This document shows, in pieces, positions 1,869-26,782 of a stretch of 32,089 nt of DNA. A model generated the notes under the pieces. The model had not been told where the DNA came from and searched no databases. It saw only the letters and a program-made list of their open reading frames with translations. The position numbers were made by a program, and so were the translations under genes. The DNA is from Oscillospiraceae bacterium. GTDB lineage: Bacteria; Bacillota; Clostridia; UBA1381; UBA9506. The stretch's first letter is position 1; every line of letters begins with the position of its first letter. Location of the stretch: the NCBI GenBank assembly GCA_015068865.1, contig SVJT01000005.1, positions 1 to 32,089 of the forward strand, written 5' to 3'.

Positions 1869-2023
1869 AGTATAAAAACCTCCTAAATAATTGTTATAAT
1901 TTTATCATATCTATTTTACAATATTGTAATAAAATATGCAAGTATTATTTTGTATTTTTTTCATTTTTTCTTTTATTCCACATAAAAAAGGTACATTTTT
2001 CTTCGTTCTTTATATATTTTTAC

Positions 2024-2614
2024 TTATTCTGCCTCTTTAGTCAGTGTATAATCCTTTAAAATCTCCGCTTTTTTAATGACCGGTTTTTTAATAATCTCAT
2101 CATGATTTAAACCGCGGGTTGGTAGTGCTGCCATTTTATCTGCAATTTCAATTCCCTCAACCACTTTGGCAAAAGTAGCATATTTTCCATCTAAATAGGG
2201 CGCTGCATCTACCATTATAAAAAACTGACCACTGGCAGAATTGTGGTTATCGGCGCGCGCCATCGACAGAACACCACGTTCATGCTTTAAGTTATTCTCA
2301 AAGCCGTTTTCTGTAAATTCGCCTTTAATACTTTTACCGGATCCGCCTACACCAAAGCCATCAGCCGAGCCACCCTGCACCAGTCCGGGAATGCTGCGAT
2401 GAAACACTTTACCATCATAATAGCCGGACTTTACGCAATCCAAAAACAGTTTTACACTTTCCGGTGCGATTTCAGGATAGGTTTCAATAATAATTTCGCC
2501 TTCGTCTAACGTTAATTTAACAAAGGTGTGCTTTCCTCCACCGCTGTTGCAACCGGATAAAACACAAACACACAAAAGTAACACACTCATAACCATGGAT
2601 ATTATTTTTTTCAT
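2024..2614 (-). CDS. Peptidyl-prolyl cis-trans isomerase (cyclophilin type), lipoprotein
   Basis: Signal peptide with lipobox LSGCN; cyclophilin core FHRSIPGLVQGG, SASGQFFIMV; likely start MKKII at ~2614. Confidence 0.92.
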   Translation of the reverse strand: MKKIISMVMSVLLLCVCVLSGCNSGGGKHTFVKLTLDEGEIIIETYPEIAPESVKLFLDCVKSGYYDGKVFHRSIPGLVQGGSADGFGVGGSGKSIKGEFTENGFENNLKHERGVLSMARADNHNSASGQFFIMVDAAPYLDGKYATFAKVVEGIEIADKMAALPTRGLNHDEIIKKPVIKKAEILKDYTLTKEAE

Positions 2615-2725
2615 TGTAAAACTCCTTATCTTCTGCATTATTTTAATAGCAAAATCAGATGCCACAAAATCATTTTACCGTGAGTAAAAATGCTTGCTTG
2701 CAAGGGCATTTTTGCGACACCGTCA

Positions 2726-2772
2726 ATTGACACATACAGAATTCCATAAAATAAAATTCTATATGTGTCAAT
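2726..2772. repeat. Long imperfect inverted repeat downstream of the small membrane protein gene
   Basis: ATTGACACATA-c-AGAATT ... AATTCT-a-TATGTGTCAAT: 11+6 paired with one mismatch. Confidence 0.7.
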
Positions 2773-2802
2773 TATAGAATTCGTGAATGATTTAGATGCC
2801 GG

Positions 2803-3153
2803 TTATTTTCTCTTATCTAAAAAATATTTTAAAATTATTTCTAATATAGTAATAATTAGCGAGCATAACACAAAATGCCATATTAAAAACTGATATTCTT
2901 CTGTTACTTCAGGATGAAAACCAACCCCATAATTTTTACGTGATAAATACTCAAATATAAATCCGATTGTTGAACATATAAAAAGTACAAGATTATATAT
3001 TATCAAGTTTCTTTTTGAAGTCGCAAAACACACATTCACTAATGACACTGCCAACGCAAGTAAAACAACATATGTAACCGGTAATATTCCTATATAAACA
3101 AATAAACAAGGAATTATGATTGCTATATTCAGCAATAGCAATTTTCTTTTCAT
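2803..3153 (-). CDS. Small integral membrane protein, unknown function
   Basis: 116 aa, about four hydrophobic segments; lies 22 nt downstream of the four-helix-bundle gene on the same strand. Confidence 0.65.
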   Translation of the reverse strand: MKRKLLLLNIAIIIPCLFVYIGILPVTYVVLLALAVSLVNVCFATSKRNLIIYNLVLFICSTIGFIFEYLSRKNYGVGFHPEVTEEYQFLIWHFVLCSLIITILEIILKYFLDKRK

Positions 3154-3175
3154 TTCATCACCTTGGGTATATTAG

Positions 3176-3526
3176 TTAATTTTTCTTTGCAGTAGTTACG
3201 GATGCAATAAGCAATTTTTTGATTTTACTGCATTTATCATACATATTTGTGTATTCCTCTTCTGTTATCATTTTCGTTTCCTTGAAAAGAGCTAACCAAT
3301 AATCACTTTCGTAACACTCTTTCAAGGCTATCTGAAATTTATTTATAAAGTCTGCTTTACTTGCAGCATAATTTGCTTCATGAATATTGGCTCCAATGCT
3401 TGTACCGCTTCTCAAAAGCTGATTTAACAGTACATTTCCTTTTCTGTTTTCCTTTATCTCTGCACACAGATTAACAATATCAACTGCAAATTGTTTTGAC
3501 AAATCTACAAGTTTATTCTCTTTCAT
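3176..3526 (-). CDS. Four helix bundle protein (TIGR02436 / 23S rRNA IVS-encoded protein / Avd-like family)
   Basis: Family signature LLRSGTSIGANIHEANYAASKADFINKFQIALKECYESDYWLALF; RBS ggagaaaagatATG. Confidence 0.92.
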   Translation of the reverse strand: MKENKLVDLSKQFAVDIVNLCAEIKENRKGNVLLNQLLRSGTSIGANIHEANYAASKADFINKFQIALKECYESDYWLALFKETKMITEEEYTNMYDKCSKIKKLLIASVTTAKKN

Positions 3527-3540
3527 ATCTTTTCTCCATT

Positions 3541-4170
3541 TAATGAATTGACAACTTTGTTATCATGAATTGGCTAAAGCCATGAATTCTCACTTCGATC
3601 CATGAATTGAATTGCCTTTTAATGCACGAAGTGTAATTCATGAGCCGCAGGCTCAATTCATGAAATCGCAGATTTCAATTCATGTCGAAAGGCAATTCAT
3701 TGATTTCATCTTCGATGAAATCATTATATAATTAGGTTACAGGAAAGATGCACCTTGTTTTTAATGAATTGACAACTGGCGTTGTCATGAATTGGCTAAA
3801 GCCATGAATTCTCACTTCGATCTATGAATTGAATTGCCTTTTAATGCACGAAGTGTAATTCATGAGCCGCAGGCTCAATTCATGAAATCGTAGATTTCAA
3901 TTCATGCCGCAAGGCAATTCATCGATTTCATCTTTGATGAAATCATTATATAATTAGGTTACAGGAAAGATGCACCTTGTTTTTAATGAATTGACAACTT
4001 TGTTGTCATGAATTGGCTAAAGCCATGAATTCTCACTTCGATCCATGAATTGAATTGCCTTTTAATGCACGAAGTGTAATTCATGAGCCGCAGGCTCAAT
4101 TCATGAAATCGTAGATTTCAATTCATGACGAAGGCAATTCATTGATTTCATTTTTGATGAAATCATTATA
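3541..4170. repeat. Tandem array of three ~188-nt multi-hairpin units with identical 33-nt spacers
   Basis: Units 3541-3728, 3762-3950, 3984-4170; spacers 3729-3761 and 3951-3983 (taattaggttacaggaaagatgcaccttgtttt). Each unit: GACAAC/GTTGTC, GGC TAAA GCC, CACTTCG/CGAAGTG, TGAGCC GCA GGCTCA, TGAAATC G(C/T)A GATTTCA, GCC GCAA GGC (variable), GATTTCATC TTC GATGAAATC, separated by ATGAATT/AATTCAT. Confidence 0.95.
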
Positions 4171-4193
4171 GCACTTTCATAAAAAAATGGCAA
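4165..4193 (-). promoter_or_regulatory. Putative sigma-A promoter reading into hairpin array and four-helix-bundle gene
   Basis: Minus strand TTGCCA - 17 nt - TATAAT; the -10 is the outer edge of unit 3. Confidence 0.5.
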
Positions 4194-4217
4194 TATTTCT
4201 TTCGAAAATTGCCATTT
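4185..4217 (-). terminator. Terminator of AGCS symporter gene
   Basis: AAATGGCAAT...ATTGCCATTT 10-bp stem just downstream of the stop; shares sequence with the predicted -35. Confidence 0.65.
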
Positions 4218-4227
4218 GGTTTTTATT

Positions 4228-5589
4228 CTATTTTTTTATCCGACCAAAATAGTCCTTTGATATGGAACTGACCACTTTACTCAATCCAAATATACCAATT
4301 AGATTAGGAATAGCCATTAAACCGTTCATTGCCTCTGAGATACTCCAGATTAAATCAAGGCTGCCGATTGTGCCAACGAAGACAAACACTACATAAATAC
4401 ATCTGTAAACAAACACGGCCTTTTTAGACTTGTCCGACAAAAATTCTATACACACTTCACCGTAATAGGCCCAACCAAGAATTGTAGACAAGGCAAAGAA
4501 AATCGTCGATGCCGTCACAACAAAACCGCCAATACCGGGAATAATCGCATTGAAGGATGCAATGCTCAATGCCGCACCCTGAAACTCTCCCGCACTCCAT
4601 AAACCCGTTGTTAAAATAACCAGGGCAGAAATGGTGCAGATTATGAGGGTTGTAAAAAATACTTCAAACATACCCCAAAGCCCTTGATGAACGGGATTTT
4701 TTGTACTGGATGCCGCATGGGCAATGGGTGCACTGCCCAAACCCGCTTCATTGGAAAACACACCTCTGGAAAACCCATAATGCATTGCCAGGACAACGCC
4801 ATAGCCTGCCACACCGCCCGTTGCTGCTTTGAAATTAAACGCCTCTTTAAAAATCAATTCAAACGCAGCAGGGATTTTATCGCAATTAATGACTAATGCT
4901 ATCATTGAGCATATCACATAGAAAACAGCCATAAACGGTACTAATTTTTCATTAACGGAAGCGATTCTGCGCATTCCTCCCAATATAACTGCTGCAACAA
5001 CAACCGTAAGGACAGCACCGGTAATCAACGGATTAACACCAACAGTGCTTTCAAGGGCAACAGCTATAGAATTAGACTGGGTTGCATTGCCCGTACCCAG
5101 ACATGCTACCATGGCAAATACTGCAAATAAAACAGCAAGCCACTTCAGATGCAAACCATTTTTTATATAATACATCGGTCCGCCAACCCACTGTCCCTGT
5201 TCATTCTTCTCTCTGTAATGTAAAGAAAGAATGATCTCGGCATATTTTGTTACCATACCCAGCAAAGCACTGACCCACATCCAGAAAACCGCTCCCGGTC
5301 CGCCTGAAACAATCGCCGTAGCCAAACCGGCAATGCTGCCTGTTCCGATGGTGCCTGCCATGGCAGTAGCAACCGCCTGAAACGGGGTAACGCCCGAGCC
5401 ATCTTTTTCGTGTTGTTTTTTTGAAAAAACACCCAATATAGTGTTTTTCAGCATATAACCAAACTTTTTAAACTGCAAAAAACCTGTCTTAAACGATAGG
5501 AATAAACCTGTTCCTATCAATAACGTCAACATAACAGGACCCCAAACAACGCCATTCACTTTTTCAATAACCAGACTAATGAACTCCAT
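4228..5589 (-). CDS. Sodium:alanine symporter family (AGCS) transporter
   Basis: FKTGFLQFKKF, GTIGTGSIAGLATAI, GGPMYYIKNGL, FSRGVFSNEAGLGSAPIAHAA; ATG at 5589 preceded by ggagga. Confidence 0.95.
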   Translation of the reverse strand: MEFISLVIEKVNGVVWGPVMLTLLIGTGLFLSFKTGFLQFKKFGYMLKNTILGVFSKKQHEKDGSGVTPFQAVATAMAGTIGTGSIAGLATAIVSGGPGAVFWMWVSALLGMVTKYAEIILSLHYREKNEQGQWVGGPMYYIKNGLHLKWLAVLFAVFAMVACLGTGNATQSNSIAVALESTVGVNPLITGAVLTVVVAAVILGGMRRIASVNEKLVPFMAVFYVICSMIALVINCDKIPAAFELIFKEAFNFKAATGGVAGYGVVLAMHYGFSRGVFSNEAGLGSAPIAHAASSTKNPVHQGLWGMFEVFFTTLIICTISALVILTTGLWSAGEFQGAALSIASFNAIIPGIGGFVVTASTIFFALSTILGWAYYGEVCIEFLSDKSKKAVFVYRCIYVVFVFVGTIGSLDLIWSISEAMNGLMAIPNLIGIFGLSKVVSSISKDYFGRIKK

Positions 5590-5625
5590 GGTGTAAAAAC
5601 TCCTCCGATTTCCAATCCCCAAATA

Positions 5626-6093
5626 TTACATTGAAACAAAATCCTTTTTTTCCGGCAGTAAGCAAACTTCATACTTATTGGTGGAAAGGACAACCGATGT
5701 GCGGGTAAGAGACACCCCACCAATTGATTTAACAAAATTCAAAATTTCTTCCAGCGTTTTTCCCGACTTAGTTACAACCTTCAGAATAAAATCGAAATCT
5801 CCTGCTATATAATGACATTCTGCCACAGAACCGTTATTGTTAATCTGCCTTATAAACTCTTCATTATATTTAGGATGCTCAAGACTAACATATATAAACG
5901 CTACAAGGTCCCTGCCTATGGTATTTTGATTGATAATTGCCGTATACTTTTCAATAATTCCTGAATTTTCAAGTTTTTTAATTCTTTCGATAACTGCAGA
6001 AGTGGAAAGATTAATCTTCGCACCTATATTGGTTGCATTTTCTCTGGCATTCTCTTTTAAAGCCTCTAAAATTTTATAATCTAAAACATCCAT
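5626..6093 (-). CDS. Lrp/AsnC family transcriptional regulator
   Basis: LDYKILEALKENARENATNIGAKINLSTSAVIERIKKLENSGIIEKYTAIIN (AsnC HTH) and RAM/AsnC ligand domain. Confidence 0.95.
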   Translation of the reverse strand: MDVLDYKILEALKENARENATNIGAKINLSTSAVIERIKKLENSGIIEKYTAIINQNTIGRDLVAFIYVSLEHPKYNEEFIRQINNNGSVAECHYIAGDFDFILKVVTKSGKTLEEILNFVKSIGGVSLTRTSVVLSTNKYEVCLLPEKKDFVSM

Positions 6094-19739: not shown

Positions 19740-19904
19740 GCCAAACAAACTAAATATATATTATTTAGGGATAAAAGTTATTTTTTACAAGGGGTTGCTA
19801 TACCCTTTTATTCTAATACCTCACGTTTTAGAATTGGCAAAAATGCAAATTCCACTTACGTGAGTGTTAAAGGTTTTATCCCATTTATGTAAAGTTTGTT
19901 TGGC
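19740..19904 (+). ncRNA. Candidate structured RNA (multi-branched, closed by 12-bp P1) upstream of LRR gene; class not recognised
   Basis: Nested stems: GCCAAACAAACT 19740-19751 / AGTTTGTTTGGC 19893-19904; GGGATAAAA 19768-19776 / TTTTATCCC 19874-19882; AAGGG 19789-19793 / CCCTT 19803-19807; CTCACGT 19820-19826 / ACGTGAG 19858-19864 with inner GAATT/AATTC. Confidence 0.65.
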
Positions 19905-19927
19905 GACAATCGGAGTTTGCGTTTTTC

Positions 19928-19960
19928 AGGTGCGTTGACTTCGGTTGATGCACCTTTTTT
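19928..19960 (+). terminator. Intrinsic terminator with cUUCGg tetraloop between structured RNA and LRR gene
   Basis: AGGTGCGTTGAC TTCG GTTGATGCACCT TTTTT. Confidence 0.85.
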
Positions 19961-19991
19961 GGTACAATATTTTGGTTTTGGAGATGATTTA

Positions 19992-22529
19992 ATGTTTAAA
20001 AAAGTAAGGTTCTTATGTATCATTAGCTTGATGATAACTTTGATAGTTATGCCTCAAAACATATCGTATGCGGCGACATCGGGGGAATGTGGCAATAATT
20101 TACGATGGTCAGTTTATAGTAGTGCTGATGGCGGTCATTTGGTGATTACTGGCAGTGGCGCTATGAAGGACTATACATATACAAATACACCTTTCAGTTC
20201 ATTAAACATCACAAAGATTACTATATATAACGGAGCAACATCGATAGGAAAAGGAGCATTTCAAGATTGTGTAAATCTAAAGTCTATAATAATACCTGAT
20301 TCTATTACTTCTATAGGGGAACGTGCTTTTTTTAATTGTACTAGCCTAACAGCGTTGACTATACCTGACGGGGTTATTAGTATTGGCAAATTTGCTTTTT
20401 ATGGTTGTGAAAAATTAGAATCAATGGAACTCGGAGTTAATGTTTCTAATATAGAACCACTTACATTTTATGGTTTAGCGACTATAAATGACATAAGCGT
20501 TAACGATAAAAACTCAAGTTTTTGTGATGTCGATGGTACATTATTTACAAAAGATATGACTAAACTCATTAAATATGGGGGCGGATTATTTGAAAAGGAA
20601 TATACGGTTCCTGATGGAGTAATTACTATAAATAGTGGTGCTTTTTCTTGCGCATTGAACACAAATTCTTGGACAAGTAACTGGTTAGACGAAATCGTTT
20701 TACCCGATTCATTAGTTACAATAGGAGACCGCGCTTTCGAACATTGCAGCAGTTTAGATACATTGCTAATACCTAGTGGTGTGACAAGTATTGGAGCCTA
20801 TGCATTTAGTGGATGCTCTCAATTAAAAAGTATATCAATACCAGTTGTAGTAAAAAATATAAACGATGGTATATTTCAAGGTTGTGCTAGTTTAACAAGT
20901 GTAGTAATCCCTAGCGGCGTAACAAACATAGGAAATTCTGCGTTTAGTGCGTGTCTTGATTTAATAGATGTATCAATCCCCAATAGCGTAACAAGTATCG
21001 GTAATGGGGCTTTTGCAAATTGTAATAATCTTGAAATTGTAAGATACAATGGTACGGAAGATGATTTCGCAAACATTACAATAGATGCATATAATAATCC
21101 ACTAAAAAATGCTGAAAAGTTTTATTTCTTGCATGTAGAAATACTTGATATGTCCGGCAACATAATATGCAAAAGAATACAGGATGCGAATCAAATAATT
21201 AACATTTCAGATGTTATAGATGAAAATTCGGCATATTACTTATATTATGATAATCAAAAAGTCAATAGATATGATATTAATTCCAAAAAAACGTCTACAA
21301 TGGTGTTGTATGCAGAGATATTTAAACCAAAATTAGAAACCATATCTATCTCGGGCAGAGATTCGTCAGAATTAGGCGAAATTATCACAGAAACCGTATT
21401 CTTTGCAACTAACAAAGATGTAAATTATATACTCTGTAACATCAAATATCCTGATAGTTTGGAATTAAAAGAAATAATACCTGTTGATTTTATGTATGCA
21501 GAAGAAGAAAGTCGGAAAACAGAAAATGGATTTACCACTTTATCTGTTTATTGCCAATATGCAAATAGCGGTAACGTTGATAAGAATAAAACCATTATTC
21601 CTTTTGAACTGAAATTCGAAATTGACAAATATTCAAATGTTGGAGATGCTTCAATAGAAATTCTAAATACCACTGAATATGGAGCTTCGTCTACAGCAGG
21701 ATTTGACAGTATTGAAAACACAAACATTAAAATTCTACCAAAACTTGCAGAAAGTATTACAATATCAGGTAAGACTGATATTTCTGATGCCACAACATAT
21801 ACAGCAACAATTATTCCTGATTATACAACAAACAAAAATATTGAGTGGTCGGTAAGCGACGCTACCATTGCTACTATTACACAAGAGGGAGGATTAAAGC
21901 CTGTTATGAATGGTCAAGTTGTCATCTATGCTAAGACACTTGATGGTAGTAATCTTGTTGCAGAAAAACTTGTTAATATCTCAGCTAAAGCCAAACTCAA
22001 TACTTTGTCAACAAGTATCGGTGATTGGGAATGTGCATTTTATGAAGATCAAAGGGAATATACAATATATGTTCCGGAAGATGCTACACAAATTGGGGTT
22101 ACTGCTACCTATGATGGTGAAGGCGTAATGAGGATAGGTGGAAGCTTAACAAGGAGCGGTGTTACAAGAAATATTGAATTAACAAATGATATTACTCCAA
22201 TCTTAATAGAAAGAACTGGTGTTGGAGATAATTATATTGATTCAGAATATACGATTACTGTTATAAAAACCAAACCATTTACAAAGGTGACGGTATCAGA
22301 GGATGGTAAGTTATTTAATGTTCGTGCATATCTTGTGGACAATTACAGTAAAATAATACTAGCATTATATAAAGATAAAAGATTTATAACTTTATATGAT
22401 GACCTTGCAAATCAAGGTGTAACTATACCATTTACTGTTACGGAAGATTATGATACGGCAAAAGTTATGGTTTGGGAGAATTGGGACACTTTAAGACCTT
22501 TATGTGAAGTGGAAGAAATAAATAGATAA
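19992..22529 (+). CDS. BspA-like leucine-rich repeat secreted/surface protein with C-terminal Ig-like/cadherin-like domains
   Basis: Signal peptide MFKKVRFLCIISLMITLIVMPQNISYA; tandem LRR_5 repeats (TSIGERAFFNCTSLTALTIPDGVISIGKFAFYGCEKLESM ...); ggaga RBS before ATG 19992. Confidence 0.9.
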   Translation: MFKKVRFLCIISLMITLIVMPQNISYAATSGECGNNLRWSVYSSADGGHLVITGSGAMKDYTYTNTPFSSLNITKITIYNGATSIGKGAFQDCVNLKSIIIPDSITSIGERAFFNCTSLTALTIPDGVISIGKFAFYGCEKLESMELGVNVSNIEPLTFYGLATINDISVNDKNSSFCDVDGTLFTKDMTKLIKYGGGLFEKEYTVPDGVITINSGAFSCALNTNSWTSNWLDEIVLPDSLVTIGDRAFEHCSSLDTLLIPSGVTSIGAYAFSGCSQLKSISIPVVVKNINDGIFQGCASLTSVVIPSGVTNIGNSAFSACLDLIDVSIPNSVTSIGNGAFANCNNLEIVRYNGTEDDFANITIDAYNNPLKNAEKFYFLHVEILDMSGNIICKRIQDANQIINISDVIDENSAYYLYYDNQKVNRYDINSKKTSTMVLYAEIFKPKLETISISGRDSSELGEIITETVFFATNKDVNYILCNIKYPDSLELKEIIPVDFMYAEEESRKTENGFTTLSVYCQYANSGNVDKNKTIIPFELKFEIDKYSNVGDASIEILNTTEYGASSTAGFDSIENTNIKILPKLAESITISGKTDISDATTYTATIIPDYTTNKNIEWSVSDATIATITQEGGLKPVMNGQVVIYAKTLDGSNLVAEKLVNISAKAKLNTLSTSIGDWECAFYEDQREYTIYVPEDATQIGVTATYDGEGVMRIGGSLTRSGVTRNIELTNDITPILIERTGVGDNYIDSEYTITVIKTKPFTKVTVSEDGKLFNVRAYLVDNYSKIILALYKDKRFITLYDDLANQGVTIPFTVTEDYDTAKVMVWENWDTLRPLCEVEEINR

Positions 22530-22699: not shown

Positions 22700-22730
22700 A
22701 TAGTTAATCAAAGAAAAGGGGTTGACTATT

Positions 22731-23294
22731 ATGTTAGTTGGATATGCAAGAGTTTCAACAGACGGACAAAATTTAGACAGGCAGATAGATGCCTTAAAAG
22801 AAGTGGGCGTAGATAACAGGGTTTTGTATCAGGAAAAAATCACAGGCACGAAAAAAGACCGCCCCGAACTACAAAGAATGTTGGAAGAACTAAACGAAGG
22901 TGATACAGTAATCATTACTGACCTTACAAGAATTTCACGTAGTACAAAGGATTTGTTGGATATAATCGAAAAAATTAAAAATAAGGGTGCTACTATACGA
23001 AGTCTGAAAGATACATGGTTAGATACCACAAGCAACAATCCGTATAATGCTTTCCTTTTAACTGTTATGAGCGGTTTAAGTCAGTTGGAACGTGATTTGA
23101 TAAGCCAACGAACAAAAGAAGGTTTGGTAAGTGCAAAAGCACGTGGACGAAATGGCGGTAGACCGTCAAAACAAAACGAAAAAGGCGAAGTTGTAAAGGC
23201 ATTAGCCAATAGCGGTATGAAAATTGTGGATATTGTAAAAGAAACAGGTTTGTCTCGAAGTACAATAAACAGAATTTTAAGAGATAATAAATAA
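22731..23294 (+). CDS. Small serine recombinase (resolvase/invertase family)
   Basis: GYARVSTDGQNLDRQIDALKEVGVD, ITDLTRISRSTKDLL, SQLERDLISQRTKEGL, C-terminal HTH_7. Confidence 0.95.
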   Translation: MLVGYARVSTDGQNLDRQIDALKEVGVDNRVLYQEKITGTKKDRPELQRMLEELNEGDTVIITDLTRISRSTKDLLDIIEKIKNKGATIRSLKDTWLDTTSNNPYNAFLLTVMSGLSQLERDLISQRTKEGLVSAKARGRNGGRPSKQNEKGEVVKALANSGMKIVDIVKETGLSRSTINRILRDNK

Positions 23295-23315
23295 CAGTTA
23301 AATATCAAAAAATTT

Positions 23316-23344
23316 GCAAGGTTGAAATATACCTTGCTTTTTTT
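23316..23344 (+). terminator. Terminator of serine recombinase gene
   Basis: GCAAGGT tgaaatat ACCTTGC TTTTTTT. Confidence 0.75.
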
Positions 23345-23490
23345 ATGCAAAAATTCAAAAAATCACGTCAAAAGTGTGTTATGTTCAAAAACGCAAATTT
23401 TCATCAAAAAGTTTCAGAAAAAAAGAGAATAATCTTGTGTAGGGTGATTTATGTGCAACCAATGCCTAAAAATTACGGGAGGAATATTTA

Positions 23491-24408
23491 ATGAACAAAG
23501 AAAAAAGAATGGCATATTGCACGAACAATACACAAGTAGGTTTCCATACAGGGAACGGAACAACGGATAATATGATTGATTTTGAAGTTGCTGACAATAT
23601 CAACATCATAAATTCATGCAATGTGCGAAAAGTAAGAAATCGTGATTGGTACAAAACATATATACGTGTAAATCCAAATAAGAACAACGGCGGTTACATT
23701 TTAGAAAAGTATTCAGATTTCAAAAAGGTAATGAAAACTGTCTTTGATGAAATTGGCGTAGACGATTTTGAATGGAAACGTATTGATTTAAGCTTTAATA
23801 CGTTAGATAACGAGTATTACGAGAATTACACAAAACTGAATAGATTGTTGATTGCGTGTTTTGCAAGTGCGACAAACGACTACAATACATACGATACGAG
23901 GAACTTTTGGACCGGATGTACAAAAAGTCTTGCCACTAAAAACAATTATCGTGAAGTCGAATTCTATGATAAACAGGACGAAAGTCAAAATCGAAGTCCG
24001 TATTATAGCAGACTTGAATTTAGAAGTTTGCGTATGCGAGCTGATGTTGAAACTGAATTTTTGACAATATGGTTTGACAGGTTGGATAAAGCGGTAAAAG
24101 AATTTGAAAACGTGCAGCACAAATTTAATCAAAACATGGCAGAAATTTATTTGAATGACCTGAAAAAGAAAAAAAGAGAACGTCAATTTTTGGGCATCAA
24201 TAGTTTTCTGATGACAAGAAAAGATTATATCTTTACGAGCAGGCAGATGAAAAATCTACTGATGCTGATTGGCTTAAATGAGAAACAGGCGCAAAACAAA
24301 GCCTATAACTTCAAAAAGTATCATAAAATCGAATACTTTAAAAAAGAAGATTTGGTGGCGATTGTTGCCGACATCAAAACAAAAATTACTGACTATTTTT
24401 CTAAATAA
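23491..24408 (+). CDS. Putative replication initiation (Rep)-like protein
   Basis: Charged ~300-aa protein with RIDLSFNTLD, VEFYDK and SRLEFRSLRM segments resembling Rep proteins of small plasmids/IMEs; family not certain. Confidence 0.45.
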   Translation: MNKEKRMAYCTNNTQVGFHTGNGTTDNMIDFEVADNINIINSCNVRKVRNRDWYKTYIRVNPNKNNGGYILEKYSDFKKVMKTVFDEIGVDDFEWKRIDLSFNTLDNEYYENYTKLNRLLIACFASATNDYNTYDTRNFWTGCTKSLATKNNYREVEFYDKQDESQNRSPYYSRLEFRSLRMRADVETEFLTIWFDRLDKAVKEFENVQHKFNQNMAEIYLNDLKKKKRERQFLGINSFLMTRKDYIFTSRQMKNLLMLIGLNEKQAQNKAYNFKKYHKIEYFKKEDLVAIVADIKTKITDYFSK

Positions 24409-24497
24409 TCAGTAATAAATTACCAAAATACAAAATTATAAAATGTCGAATAGGCATTGAAATACAAGGCTTTATAGACGATTTTCTTTAAAGCTAA

Positions 24498-24532
24498 TTA
24501 CCTAATATATATGTAAGCATACATACAGGTAA
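24498..24532 (+). other. Hairpin in the intergenic region downstream of Rep-like gene
   Basis: TTACCT...TATGTA agca TACATA c AGGTAA two-stage stem. Confidence 0.45.
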
Positions 24533-24647
24533 CAGTTGTACATAAATACTCTACAAAAATTTATGTATAAAGGAGAAAAGTGCATTGGCACTAATATCTA
24601 CCAATAAAATAATCTTTTCATTAGTGCTGATAGCACGAGTGAAAAAT

Positions 24648-25220
24648 ATGGCAAATTATAAAATTTTATCAAATACTGAAAAACATACGAGATATAACAA
24701 TATGAAAAATAGATGTGGAAAATACTATCAGTTGCAAAATCCACGTTATGAAGGTACATATATGTGTGATGAATGGTTAGATAACAAATATGAAACTTTT
24801 TTCACTTGGTTAGATAATAACTATTATGAAGTTGACGGCGAAAAACAGATGGATATAGATAAAGACATCATCAAATACGGAAACAAACTGTATCATCCTG
24901 ACTTGTGTTTGGTAGTGCCACATAGTATAAATACATTCTATGAAACAATAGAGGTTGGCAAAACCAACATCACATATAATTCAAAAACAAAGAAATATCG
25001 TGTTAAAGTGGCAGATAAAAACGAATATCACGAATTGAGCAATATAGATACATATAATGAAGCGTTAGATATATATTGCGATATAAAGCAAGGGATATTG
25101 TTTAACAAAGCAAAAGCACTTAAAGATAAAGTGCCTGAAAAGGTTTATAATGCTTTGATGAATACCGACATAAAGGCTATCAACCAAAAGTATTGTGAAT
25201 CTGTTGAAGGTGAGGTGTGA
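24648..25220 (+). CDS. Unknown protein, resembles phage/IME HNH-AP2-type small proteins
   Basis: RYNNMKNRCG...MCDEWLDNKYETFFTWLDNNYY...MDIDKDIIKYGNKLYHPDLCLVVPHSIN pattern; ATG at 24648 (MANYK). Confidence 0.5.
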   Translation: MANYKILSNTEKHTRYNNMKNRCGKYYQLQNPRYEGTYMCDEWLDNKYETFFTWLDNNYYEVDGEKQMDIDKDIIKYGNKLYHPDLCLVVPHSINTFYETIEVGKTNITYNSKTKKYRVKVADKNEYHELSNIDTYNEALDIYCDIKQGILFNKAKALKDKVPEKVYNALMNTDIKAINQKYCESVEGEV

Positions 25221-25224
25221 GCCG

Positions 25225-25428
25225 TTGAAAAAGATAGAAATACCTATTTGGGAAAAATATGCTTTAACGATAGACGAAGCGGCTTTATACTTCAGAATTG
25301 GTGAAAATGCTATAAGACGTATTATAAACGAAAATCAGGATGCAAATTTTTGGTTCATGATAGGTAACAGGAAGTTAATAAAGCGAGTGCTTTTTGAAGA
25401 ATATATGAACGGCGTGACCGTAATTTAA
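25225..25428 (+). CDS. Excisionase-like (Tn916 Xis-type) DNA-binding protein
   Basis: IPIWEKYALTIDEAALYFRIGENAIRRIINENQDANFWFMIGNRKLIKRVLFEEYM immediately upstream of integrase; TTG start with aaggtgagg RBS. Confidence 0.85.
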   Translation: MKKIEIPIWEKYALTIDEAALYFRIGENAIRRIINENQDANFWFMIGNRKLIKRVLFEEYMNGVTVI

Positions 25429-25483
25429 CTTTAATGTATGGACGAATTGAGCCTGATATGGTATAATAGTTTCATACTATATC

Positions 25484-26782
25484 ATGGCTCTTTTCGGAAA
25501 GGAGATTTATTTAGTGTCTGAAAAGAGAAGAGATAACAAGAAACGAATTTTAAATAATGGAGAGAGCCAACGTAAAGATGGTAAGTATGAGTTTAAATAT
25601 GTAGATGCTAACGGCGTGCGTAGAAGTGCGTACAGTTGGAAATTGGTTGATACCGATAAAGTGCCTGAAGGAAAAAGGTGTGATATGAGTTTGCGAGAAA
25701 TCGAAAAACAAATACGCCGGGATTTGGAAGATGGTATCAGTACCCACAATGCCAACAGTAAAACATTGAATGATATATATAATACATATATGGAAAGTAA
25801 AACGGAGTTGAAGCCGTCAACAAGAACTAATTACAAGTATATGTATAAAAAATATGTAAGCATCTCAATCGGTAAAAGACGAATTTCTACTATTAAATAT
25901 AGCGATATAAAAAAGTTTTATAATAGCTTAATATTAGAAAAGGGATTTAAACCAAACAGTATGGAATCTATACATACAATTTTACATCCCATATTTACAA
26001 TGGCGGTTAGAGATGGTTATATACGCACAAACCCAACAGATGATGTGATGCGTGAAATTAAGAAAAGTCATAATTGGGAAACACCGAAACGTCACGCACT
26101 TACTGAAGAACAACAGGAAATATTTATTGACTTTGTTGCTAATTCAAAAGAATATCAGCATTGGCTACCCTTATTTACTGTTTTTCTCGGTACAGGGTGC
26201 AGAGTTGGTGAGATTATTGGTTTAACGTGGGAAGATTGCAACTTCAAAGAAGGTATTATATCAATCAACCATAATCTGATTTATAGGCAACAGGACAACG
26301 GAAAATGCGAAATGCACATTACTACGCCGAAAACAGAATCAGGCAAAAGAATTGTGCCAATGTTTGAGGCGGTACGCAAAGCGTTATTACAAGAGAAAAT
26401 GCGACAGATGCAAATAGGGTTTAACACAACCATAATAGACGGATATTCAGGGTTTGTGTTCAAAAACAGGTTTGGATATGTACACAATCCACATGCAATA
26501 AACAGAGCCATAAAACGCATTTACACCGCCTGTAACAAACAGGAAATGGAACGTGCAGCAAAGGAACGCCGAGAGCCGATATTGATACCACACTTTAGTT
26601 GTCATTCATTAAGACATACCTTTTGTACGAGATTTTGCGAGAATGAAACAGACCTGAAAATCATTCAGGAAATCATGGGACATGCCGATATTAGCACAAC
26701 AATGAACGTTTATAATGAAGCAACAAAGGAGCGGAAACAGGCATCTTTTGCAAGATTGGAAGGTAAAATCAAAATATGCTAA
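25484..26782 (+). CDS. Tyrosine site-specific integrase (Tn916-type; possible GTG start at 25514)
   Basis: Catalytic motifs GTGCRVGEIIGLTWEDC, HSLRHTFCTRF, MGHADISTTMNVY. Confidence 0.96.
   Translation: MALFGKEIYLVSEKRRDNKKRILNNGESQRKDGKYEFKYVDANGVRRSAYSWKLVDTDKVPEGKRCDMSLREIEKQIRRDLEDGISTHNANSKTLNDIYNTYMESKTELKPSTRTNYKYMYKKYVSISIGKRRISTIKYSDIKKFYNSLILEKGFKPNSMESIHTILHPIFTMAVRDGYIRTNPTDDVMREIKKSHNWETPKRHALTEEQQEIFIDFVANSKEYQHWLPLFTVFLGTGCRVGEIIGLTWEDCNFKEGIISINHNLIYRQQDNGKCEMHITTPKTESGKRIVPMFEAVRKALLQEKMRQMQIGFNTTIIDGYSGFVFKNRFGYVHNPHAINRAIKRIYTACNKQEMERAAKERREPILIPHFSCHSLRHTFCTRFCENETDLKIIQEIMGHADISTTMNVYNEATKERKQASFARLEGKIKIC

Follow-up and report, generated by a model that had tools for sequence, protein, structure and literature searches.

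The hairpin array and the adjoining four-helix-bundle (4HB) gene on contig SVJT01000005.1 of an Oscillospiraceae bacterium are best explained as a member of a family of mobile elements of very small size, whose 4HB protein probably binds the array and mobilises it. That these are mobile elements is highly probable from the comparison of sites between genomes, while the assignment of the 4HB protein as the mobility factor is an even call. The window, i.e. the whole stretch of DNA that was analysed, comprises 32,089 nucleotides of a 1.74-Mb metagenome-assembled genome (MAG) that is 81% complete, and nearly all of the genomes used for comparison are also MAGs. An element starts with a hairpin (h0), after which come seven arrayed hairpins that are joined by a family-specific word (W) and then by its reverse complement (rcW); the 4HB gene follows, in many cases with one cargo gene, and a short 3′-end motif closes the element.

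The window array contains three units of ~188 nt, at the positions given by an earlier reading of the sequence alone, with a period of 221–222 nt and two copies that are 97% identical (Table 1). On the minus strand, which is the sense strand of the 4HB gene, the formula of a unit is h0 - W h1 W h2 W h3 W h4 - GGCAATTC - rcW h5 rcW h6 rcW h7 rcW, and the centre between the two halves is also given as AAAAGGCAATTC. The seven hairpins per unit and their ATGAATT/AATTCAT linkers had been noticed before; W (ATGAATT) occupies the first half and rcW (AATTCAT) the second. The arrays are on the 5′ side of the gene, and contact of one unit with the ribosome-binding site (RBS) was likewise found. The 33-nt spacer is identical between units, as described, but it is not neutral, as its sequence is similar to the 3′ end of related elements with TATAATG after it, and the same string terminates one of the array-only copies of a sister genome (L065). 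The sequence-only reading had confined the system to positions 3176–4170, and this had to be corrected, as the element extends to about 2785. It is neighboured by a symporter gene and a peptidyl-prolyl isomerase (PPIase) gene.

Table 1. Features of the window element and its immediate surroundings
Feature	Position	Strand	Remarks
4HB gene (PF05635/TIGR02436), 116 aa	3176..3526	minus	profile matches and AF2 fold; sole gene common to the elements
Array unit nearest to the 4HB gene	3541..3728	minus	h0 and seven hairpins; abuts the RBS
Array unit 2	3762..3950	minus	same layout as the other units
Array unit 3 (distal)	3984..4170	minus	same layout as the other units; RNA z = −7.4
33-nt spacer AAAACAAGGTGCATCTTTCCTGTAACCTAATTA	3729..3761, again 3951–3983	minus	followed by TATAATG of the next unit
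Promoter-like TTGCCA-N17-TATAAT	4165..4193	minus	directly 5′ of h0 of the distal unit; predicted from the consensus
h0 hairpin TGATTTCATCAAAAATGAAATCA	4143..4165	minus	further copies near 3924–3945 and 3701–3723
Small membrane-protein ORF directly downstream of 4HB	2803..3153	minus	no Pfam or NCBIfam match; probable cargo of the element
3′-end motif of the element GGCATCTAAATCATTC	2785..2800	minus	followed by TATAAT (2776–2771)
Second, array-less miniature element TATAATTGACACATATAGAATTTTATTT...GGCATCTGATTTTGC	2649..2776	minus	nested beside the window element

The array-less element at 2649–2776 belongs to a miniature family, TATAATTGACACATACAGAATTTTATTTCATAAAATTC...GGTAAAATGATTTTTC, which carries no word array and has the same GGCATCTAAATC 3′ end as the array elements, with several copies per genome (L008, about 1960–2150; L009, about 1890–2050; L155; L161). 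Elsewhere in the window, genes for a resolvase, a Rep-like protein, and a tyrosine recombinase are clustered at 22722–26782, probably as an unrelated small integrative element, and a large surface protein with leucine-rich (BspA-like) repeats is encoded at 19896–22529.

The 4HB protein matches PF05635 with 92 bits (curated cut-off 33.8, E 3e-26) and TIGR02436 with 102 bits (curated cut-off 24, E 2e-29), in agreement with the earlier assignment to the latter family. Its AlphaFold2 model is a four-helix bundle (pLDDT 92) that superimposes on 2RLD (TM 0.9), 2GSC (0.83), and Avd of a Bordetella phage retroelement (4DWL, 0.81). By this structural match the model has an S23/Avd-type fold, and the suggested kinship to Avd holds at the level of the fold. 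Proteins of this fold class form a pentamer family, and Avd is a nucleic-acid partner protein (PMC10053308).

The array is predicted to be strongly structured. The folding energy of unit 3 was not reached by any of 200 dinucleotide shuffles (z = −7.4 for RNA and −6.2 for DNA), and the stems of the hairpins covary between genomes with a score of 9.98 (shuffled mean 3.48, maximum 4.92). RNAalifold detected double changes in 11 of 28 pairs, and an additional conserved pairing connects W1 and the first arm of h1 with the central GGCAATTCA, with compensatory changes at columns 14/106. The hairpin loops have a strict polarity, C(TNC)G in the first half (22/0) and C(GNA)G in the second (32/0), and the array is therefore an inverted pair of sets of hairpin-plus-word units. 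GNA loops form hyperstable DNA mini-hairpins, and those of the second half are a hint of single-stranded DNA. In the strand-specific RNA test, G·T mismatches numbered 16 and A·C mismatches 9. A nested W:rcW pairing into stacked four-way junctions was not accepted as demonstrated, with a value of 0.9125 against 0.90–0.92 for other word pairings, and the pairing comparison gave no support for position-specific W:rcW pairs. The words of the array look like recognition motifs.

The coupling of array and gene recurs outside of the window. Of 80 loci with 4HB relatives, taken from further genomes of gut Clostridia, 72 show a word/reverse-word array in the 300 nt that precede the start codon; the figure for control windows is 14 of 848. 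The two parts thus form one conserved unit elsewhere, and the search of homologue flanks for word-linked hairpin arrays that the earlier reading had asked for was positive. In about 8 of the 80 loci the array is absent or decayed, which counts against our preferred explanation. 4HB genes are present in eight of ten genomes of the same genus, and before most of them stands an array with the same layout and another word. The words found with other 4HB subfamilies are GTGAAAT, ATGAAAT, GCGATAT, TCGATAT, and GTGATAT, with GCTAAAT in the family, and the copies of a word inside one array change in concert. Pairs of 4HB proteins with the same word are on average 87% identical and pairs with different words 49%, a difference that was reached in 0 of 5000 permutations of the labels. 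Since word and protein subfamily vary together, the array very probably serves 4HB as a substrate or ligand. The cognate pairing of the two is well supported by these sequence comparisons, and physical binding of a 4HB protein to its own array is likely. The proposal that the array is a substrate of the adjacent protein is in this respect upheld, within an apparently mobile element and not in a fixed RNA–protein system as first envisaged.

The association has limits. No array was found beside distant 4HB subfamilies of the SIPANIAEG type, which rules out an array universal to all 4HB proteins. At seven loci (L017, L019, L024, L030, L031, L035, L036), long inverted repeats of TTCACTATTCACT-like words replace the hairpin array upstream of 4HB; these loci are mostly located behind tRNA terminators, with a third copy of the terminator arm. 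In L265 (Monoglobus pectinilyticus NZ_OY725736, 2900–3400) and L244, TAATTAGGAATGAGG / GAATGAATAATGAA words flank 4HB genes, and the Monoglobus gene has been inserted into a type I restriction system, with hsdS on one side and hsdR on the other. Arrays of the GTGATAT and TGAAAT types also accompany 4HB genes on two contigs from human faeces that were deposited as phage; one of these loci stands behind tRNA-Arg.

An array that stops at the RBS, hairpins that covary, and a promoter-like TTGNNA-N17-TATAAT before h0 in several loci could also describe a structured 5′ leader of the 4HB mRNA, through which 4HB would autoregulate by binding, or a type III RNA antitoxin. Such a cis-acting role is improbable, as many array copies are not accompanied by a 4HB gene, some lie behind terminators where transcription is unlikely, others are inserted into promoters of other genes or into rumA, and no known toxin was matched by 4HB. 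Array-only copies are scattered in the genome of the window and in its relatives. Dispersed units unrelated to the gene family had been named as an observation against the initial proposal; the units are dispersed, yet they are related to the 4HB family.

Occupied and empty sites support the mobile-element explanation. In the ttcA promoter, the empty site of G006 (TTGAAA-N17-TACAAT) reads ATATGG-TACAAT-AAACAT, and the occupied site of G000 and G007 reads ATATGG-TATAAT-G..array..GGCATCCAAATCGTTCACTGATTC-TACAAT-AAACAC, so the ATGAATT array sits at the −10 box with the hexamer on both sides. In G005, a GCGATAT array is present at the identical site. G007 is without the window element before its PPIase gene, the product of which shares 90% identity with the window PPIase. 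The 3′ end of rumA holds 43 of the 80 elements; it is empty in most sister genomes and elsewhere contains arrays of several word types. In L138, L124, and L129, a second copy of the core CATGTNGARWCNGT follows 4HB and cargo and is itself followed by the apparent original rumA tail. In 30 of 42 cases, as against 2 of 340 shuffles, the h0 that precedes W1 pairs perfectly with the rumA sequence of the host over 7–19 bp to form its hairpin, although the host sequences differ. At other sites, the array starts directly 3′ of an intrinsic terminator (15 of 26 copies, compared with 25 of 1206 control positions), and these terminator-linked arrays stand behind tRNA genes of many isotypes. A 3′-end motif of one class, GGCATCTAAATCRTTC, marks the end of 4HB units, of array-only copies with any of several words, and also of a miniature element that is unrelated; it has 46 matches in ten genomes compared with two for a reversed-pattern control, and it closes the window unit at 2785–2800. 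In all 23 same-word pairs, 4HB identity exceeds RumA identity (e.g. 0.97 vs 0.51); between genomes, 4HB proteins are 70–97% identical and RumA mostly 48–71%, disregarding two RumA values of 0.17–0.18 that involve a probably mis-framed G003 sequence. Mobility is therefore well supported by comparison of copies, and the elements have apparently been transferred horizontally, also between genera.

The genes carried along are diverse. The 30 genes downstream of 4HB encode nucleotidyltransferase (NTase), AAA kinase, GNAT, NUDIX, TfoX-like, AlkD-like, NERD, ASCH, and DUF proteins or are plain host genes, and none of the 30 is a recombinase; inside the element, neither a transposase nor an integrase was found. 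Behind rumA, small genes (NUDIX, DUF2716, DUF5071, AlkD-like, and TfoX-like) stand in series like cassettes, with duplicated rumA 3′ ends between them (L138, L124, L129, L135, L141). In a few loci, arrays with a duplicated rumA core also precede other small genes, a TfoX-like one in L132 and an AlkD-like one in L135, and the array may for this reason be a recombination site for cassettes and not a part exclusive to 4HB. Together with the diversity of the cargo (GNAT, NUDIX, NTase, kinase, and DUFs), a core of ~14 bp common to element and host on both sides, and three tyrosine-recombinase matches in the own genome, these arrangements would suit arrays that are REP-like non-coding repeats, moved on short cores (rumA 3′ end, GGCATCTAAATC) by an unrelated recombinase of the host or of an integrative and conjugative element (ICE), with 4HB as one passenger of integron-like cassettes. 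We consider this unlikely, since 4HB is the only recurrent gene and the array word fits its subfamily, and since terminators and −10 boxes of unrelated sequence serve as sites too. The spacer of h0 ranges from 3 to about 24 nt, and with stem and spacer lengths this variable, a fixed tyrosine-recombinase core at rumA is not favoured. For array-only words, a cognate 4HB gene was often not found in the same assembly (G018, G019, G015, G002, G009), and within one genome no consistent link was seen between array-only words and 4HB words, which weakens the case for mobilisation in trans by 4HB.

The Avd-like fold and the choice of sites 3′ of terminators, which recalls group IIC introns, raise the question of a retroelement mobilised in trans, with 4HB as the Avd-like partner of a reverse transcriptase (RT) encoded elsewhere in the host. 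The earlier statement that the window contains no RT was borne out and extends to the genus: none of ten same-genus genomes has a PF00078 match (completeness is at least 90% in five), and eight of the ten carry 4HB elements. An RT in trans was accordingly rejected for this genus, and the chance that such a partner accounts for the elements is very small.

Part of the system is already catalogued as Gut-1 RNA (RF01706), which is listed as a noncoding RNA found only in the human gut and without a function (PMC2864571). Matches above the Rfam cut-off occur in 12 of 20 genomes of the family, and about 12 of 57 matches have a 4HB gene on their own strand and stand no more than 500 nt 5′ of it, where chance would give about 0.06 (33 4HB genes with a 1-kb window each, about 32 Mb). 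Those directly 5′ of 4HB on the same strand are on G004:C9, G003:C8, G016:C41, G016:C30, G016:C3, G009:C21, G012:C3, G006:C16, G014:C11, G008:C26, G008:C19, and G005:C17. Judging by these matches, Gut-1 is a fragment of the 4HB-linked arrays, namely a stretch of the first half with W = GUGAAAU. Arrays with other words in the genus of the window reach the gathering cut-off of 50 bits, whereas the window array, which carries another word, remains below it with 25.7 bits. The suggestion that the system had not been described appears to hold for the array together with its 4HB gene, of which no description was found in the literature searched (most subscription journals being outside its coverage), and fails for the part that Rfam already contains.

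As the sole recurrent gene, whose subfamily predicts the word, 4HB would, on the simplest reading, recognise the array and be either the mobility factor or its specificity subunit. In the mechanism that we propose, the Avd-like 4HB protein, whose homologues are homopentamers, would bind its own array at the hairpins that W flanks, the array being folded as RNA or as single-stranded DNA. The protein would then carry or guide this strand to a target that a hairpin or an opened duplex marks. Insertion would be completed by host enzymes or by 4HB itself, and array-only copies would represent non-autonomous derivatives. Tentatively, this could be a new mechanism of mobility, in which each 4HB subfamily reads its own 7-nt word in a folded array, the array and any gene behind it are inserted beside hairpins, terminator T-tracts, and −10 boxes, and host sequence is copied into a fold-back hairpin, with no RT, transposase, or site-specific integrase. 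If so, Gut-1 RNA, rRNA intervening sequences, and the present elements would belong to one superfamily. The element family offers two orphans, Gut-1 RNA and the four-helix-bundle/IVP family, a common explanation that can be tested. The code that relates protein subfamily to 7-nt word would constitute a specificity system open to testing. Because the elements are common in gut Clostridia, apparently cross genera, sit in promoters and rumA, and carry cargo, genes may flow between gut bacteria by this route, which would have been overlooked.

Among known systems, rRNA intervening sequences (IVSs) of Leptospira, Coxiella, and CPR bacteria, with S23p/23S_rRNA_IVP ORFs, share the protein family, the small size, and the hairpin ends, and they too are described as parasitic and horizontally transferred. 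IVSs with a four-helix-bundle ORF were reportedly described in 1993, and the function of the family is said to have been unexplained since. IVSs take the place of small hairpin loops of rRNA helices (PMC4990558), and CPR rRNA genes contain scattered insertions, IVP-coding and ORF-less, the latter at the same sites (PMC11270868); by analogy, both would fit a hairpin-targeting family. The present elements differ in their word-coded seven-hairpin arrays, cargo, and dispersed array-only copies, and in being located outside rRNA genes, next to symporter and PPIase genes in the window and at rumA, tRNA terminators, and promoters in its relatives. Diversity-generating retroelements (DGRs) have in Avd a protein of the same four-helix fold and pentamer family that is a nucleic-acid partner, but they possess an RT, which is absent here from all ten same-genus genomes. 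In REP/BIME systems with RAYT (TnpA-REP), a gene is flanked by hairpin repeats and repeat-only copies are dispersed in inverted pairs. This arrangement of a gene with hairpin repeats and scattered repeat-only copies is shared, but here a four-helix protein replaces the HUH/Y1 transposase, the word varies with the subfamily, and no HUH (Y1) transposase adjoins the window array, next to which only 4HB and the Pfam-less membrane ORF are found. Group IIC introns insert just 3′ of intrinsic terminators, as do many of the copies described here; no group II intron was matched by Rfam at positions 2000–6000, and no RT/maturase was found in the ten same-genus genomes. In type III toxin–antitoxin systems, the gene behind the repeats encodes a ToxN-fold endoribonuclease and not a four-helix protein. 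As regards integron gene cassettes, the cargo is arranged like cassettes, and the own genome has tyrosine recombinases. The class of element appears to be new, because the defining features of IVSs, DGRs, REP/RAYT, group II introns, and type III toxin–antitoxin systems that were tested are absent from it; if all 4HB-coding insertions were of one kind, these elements would instead be a variant of IVS elements.
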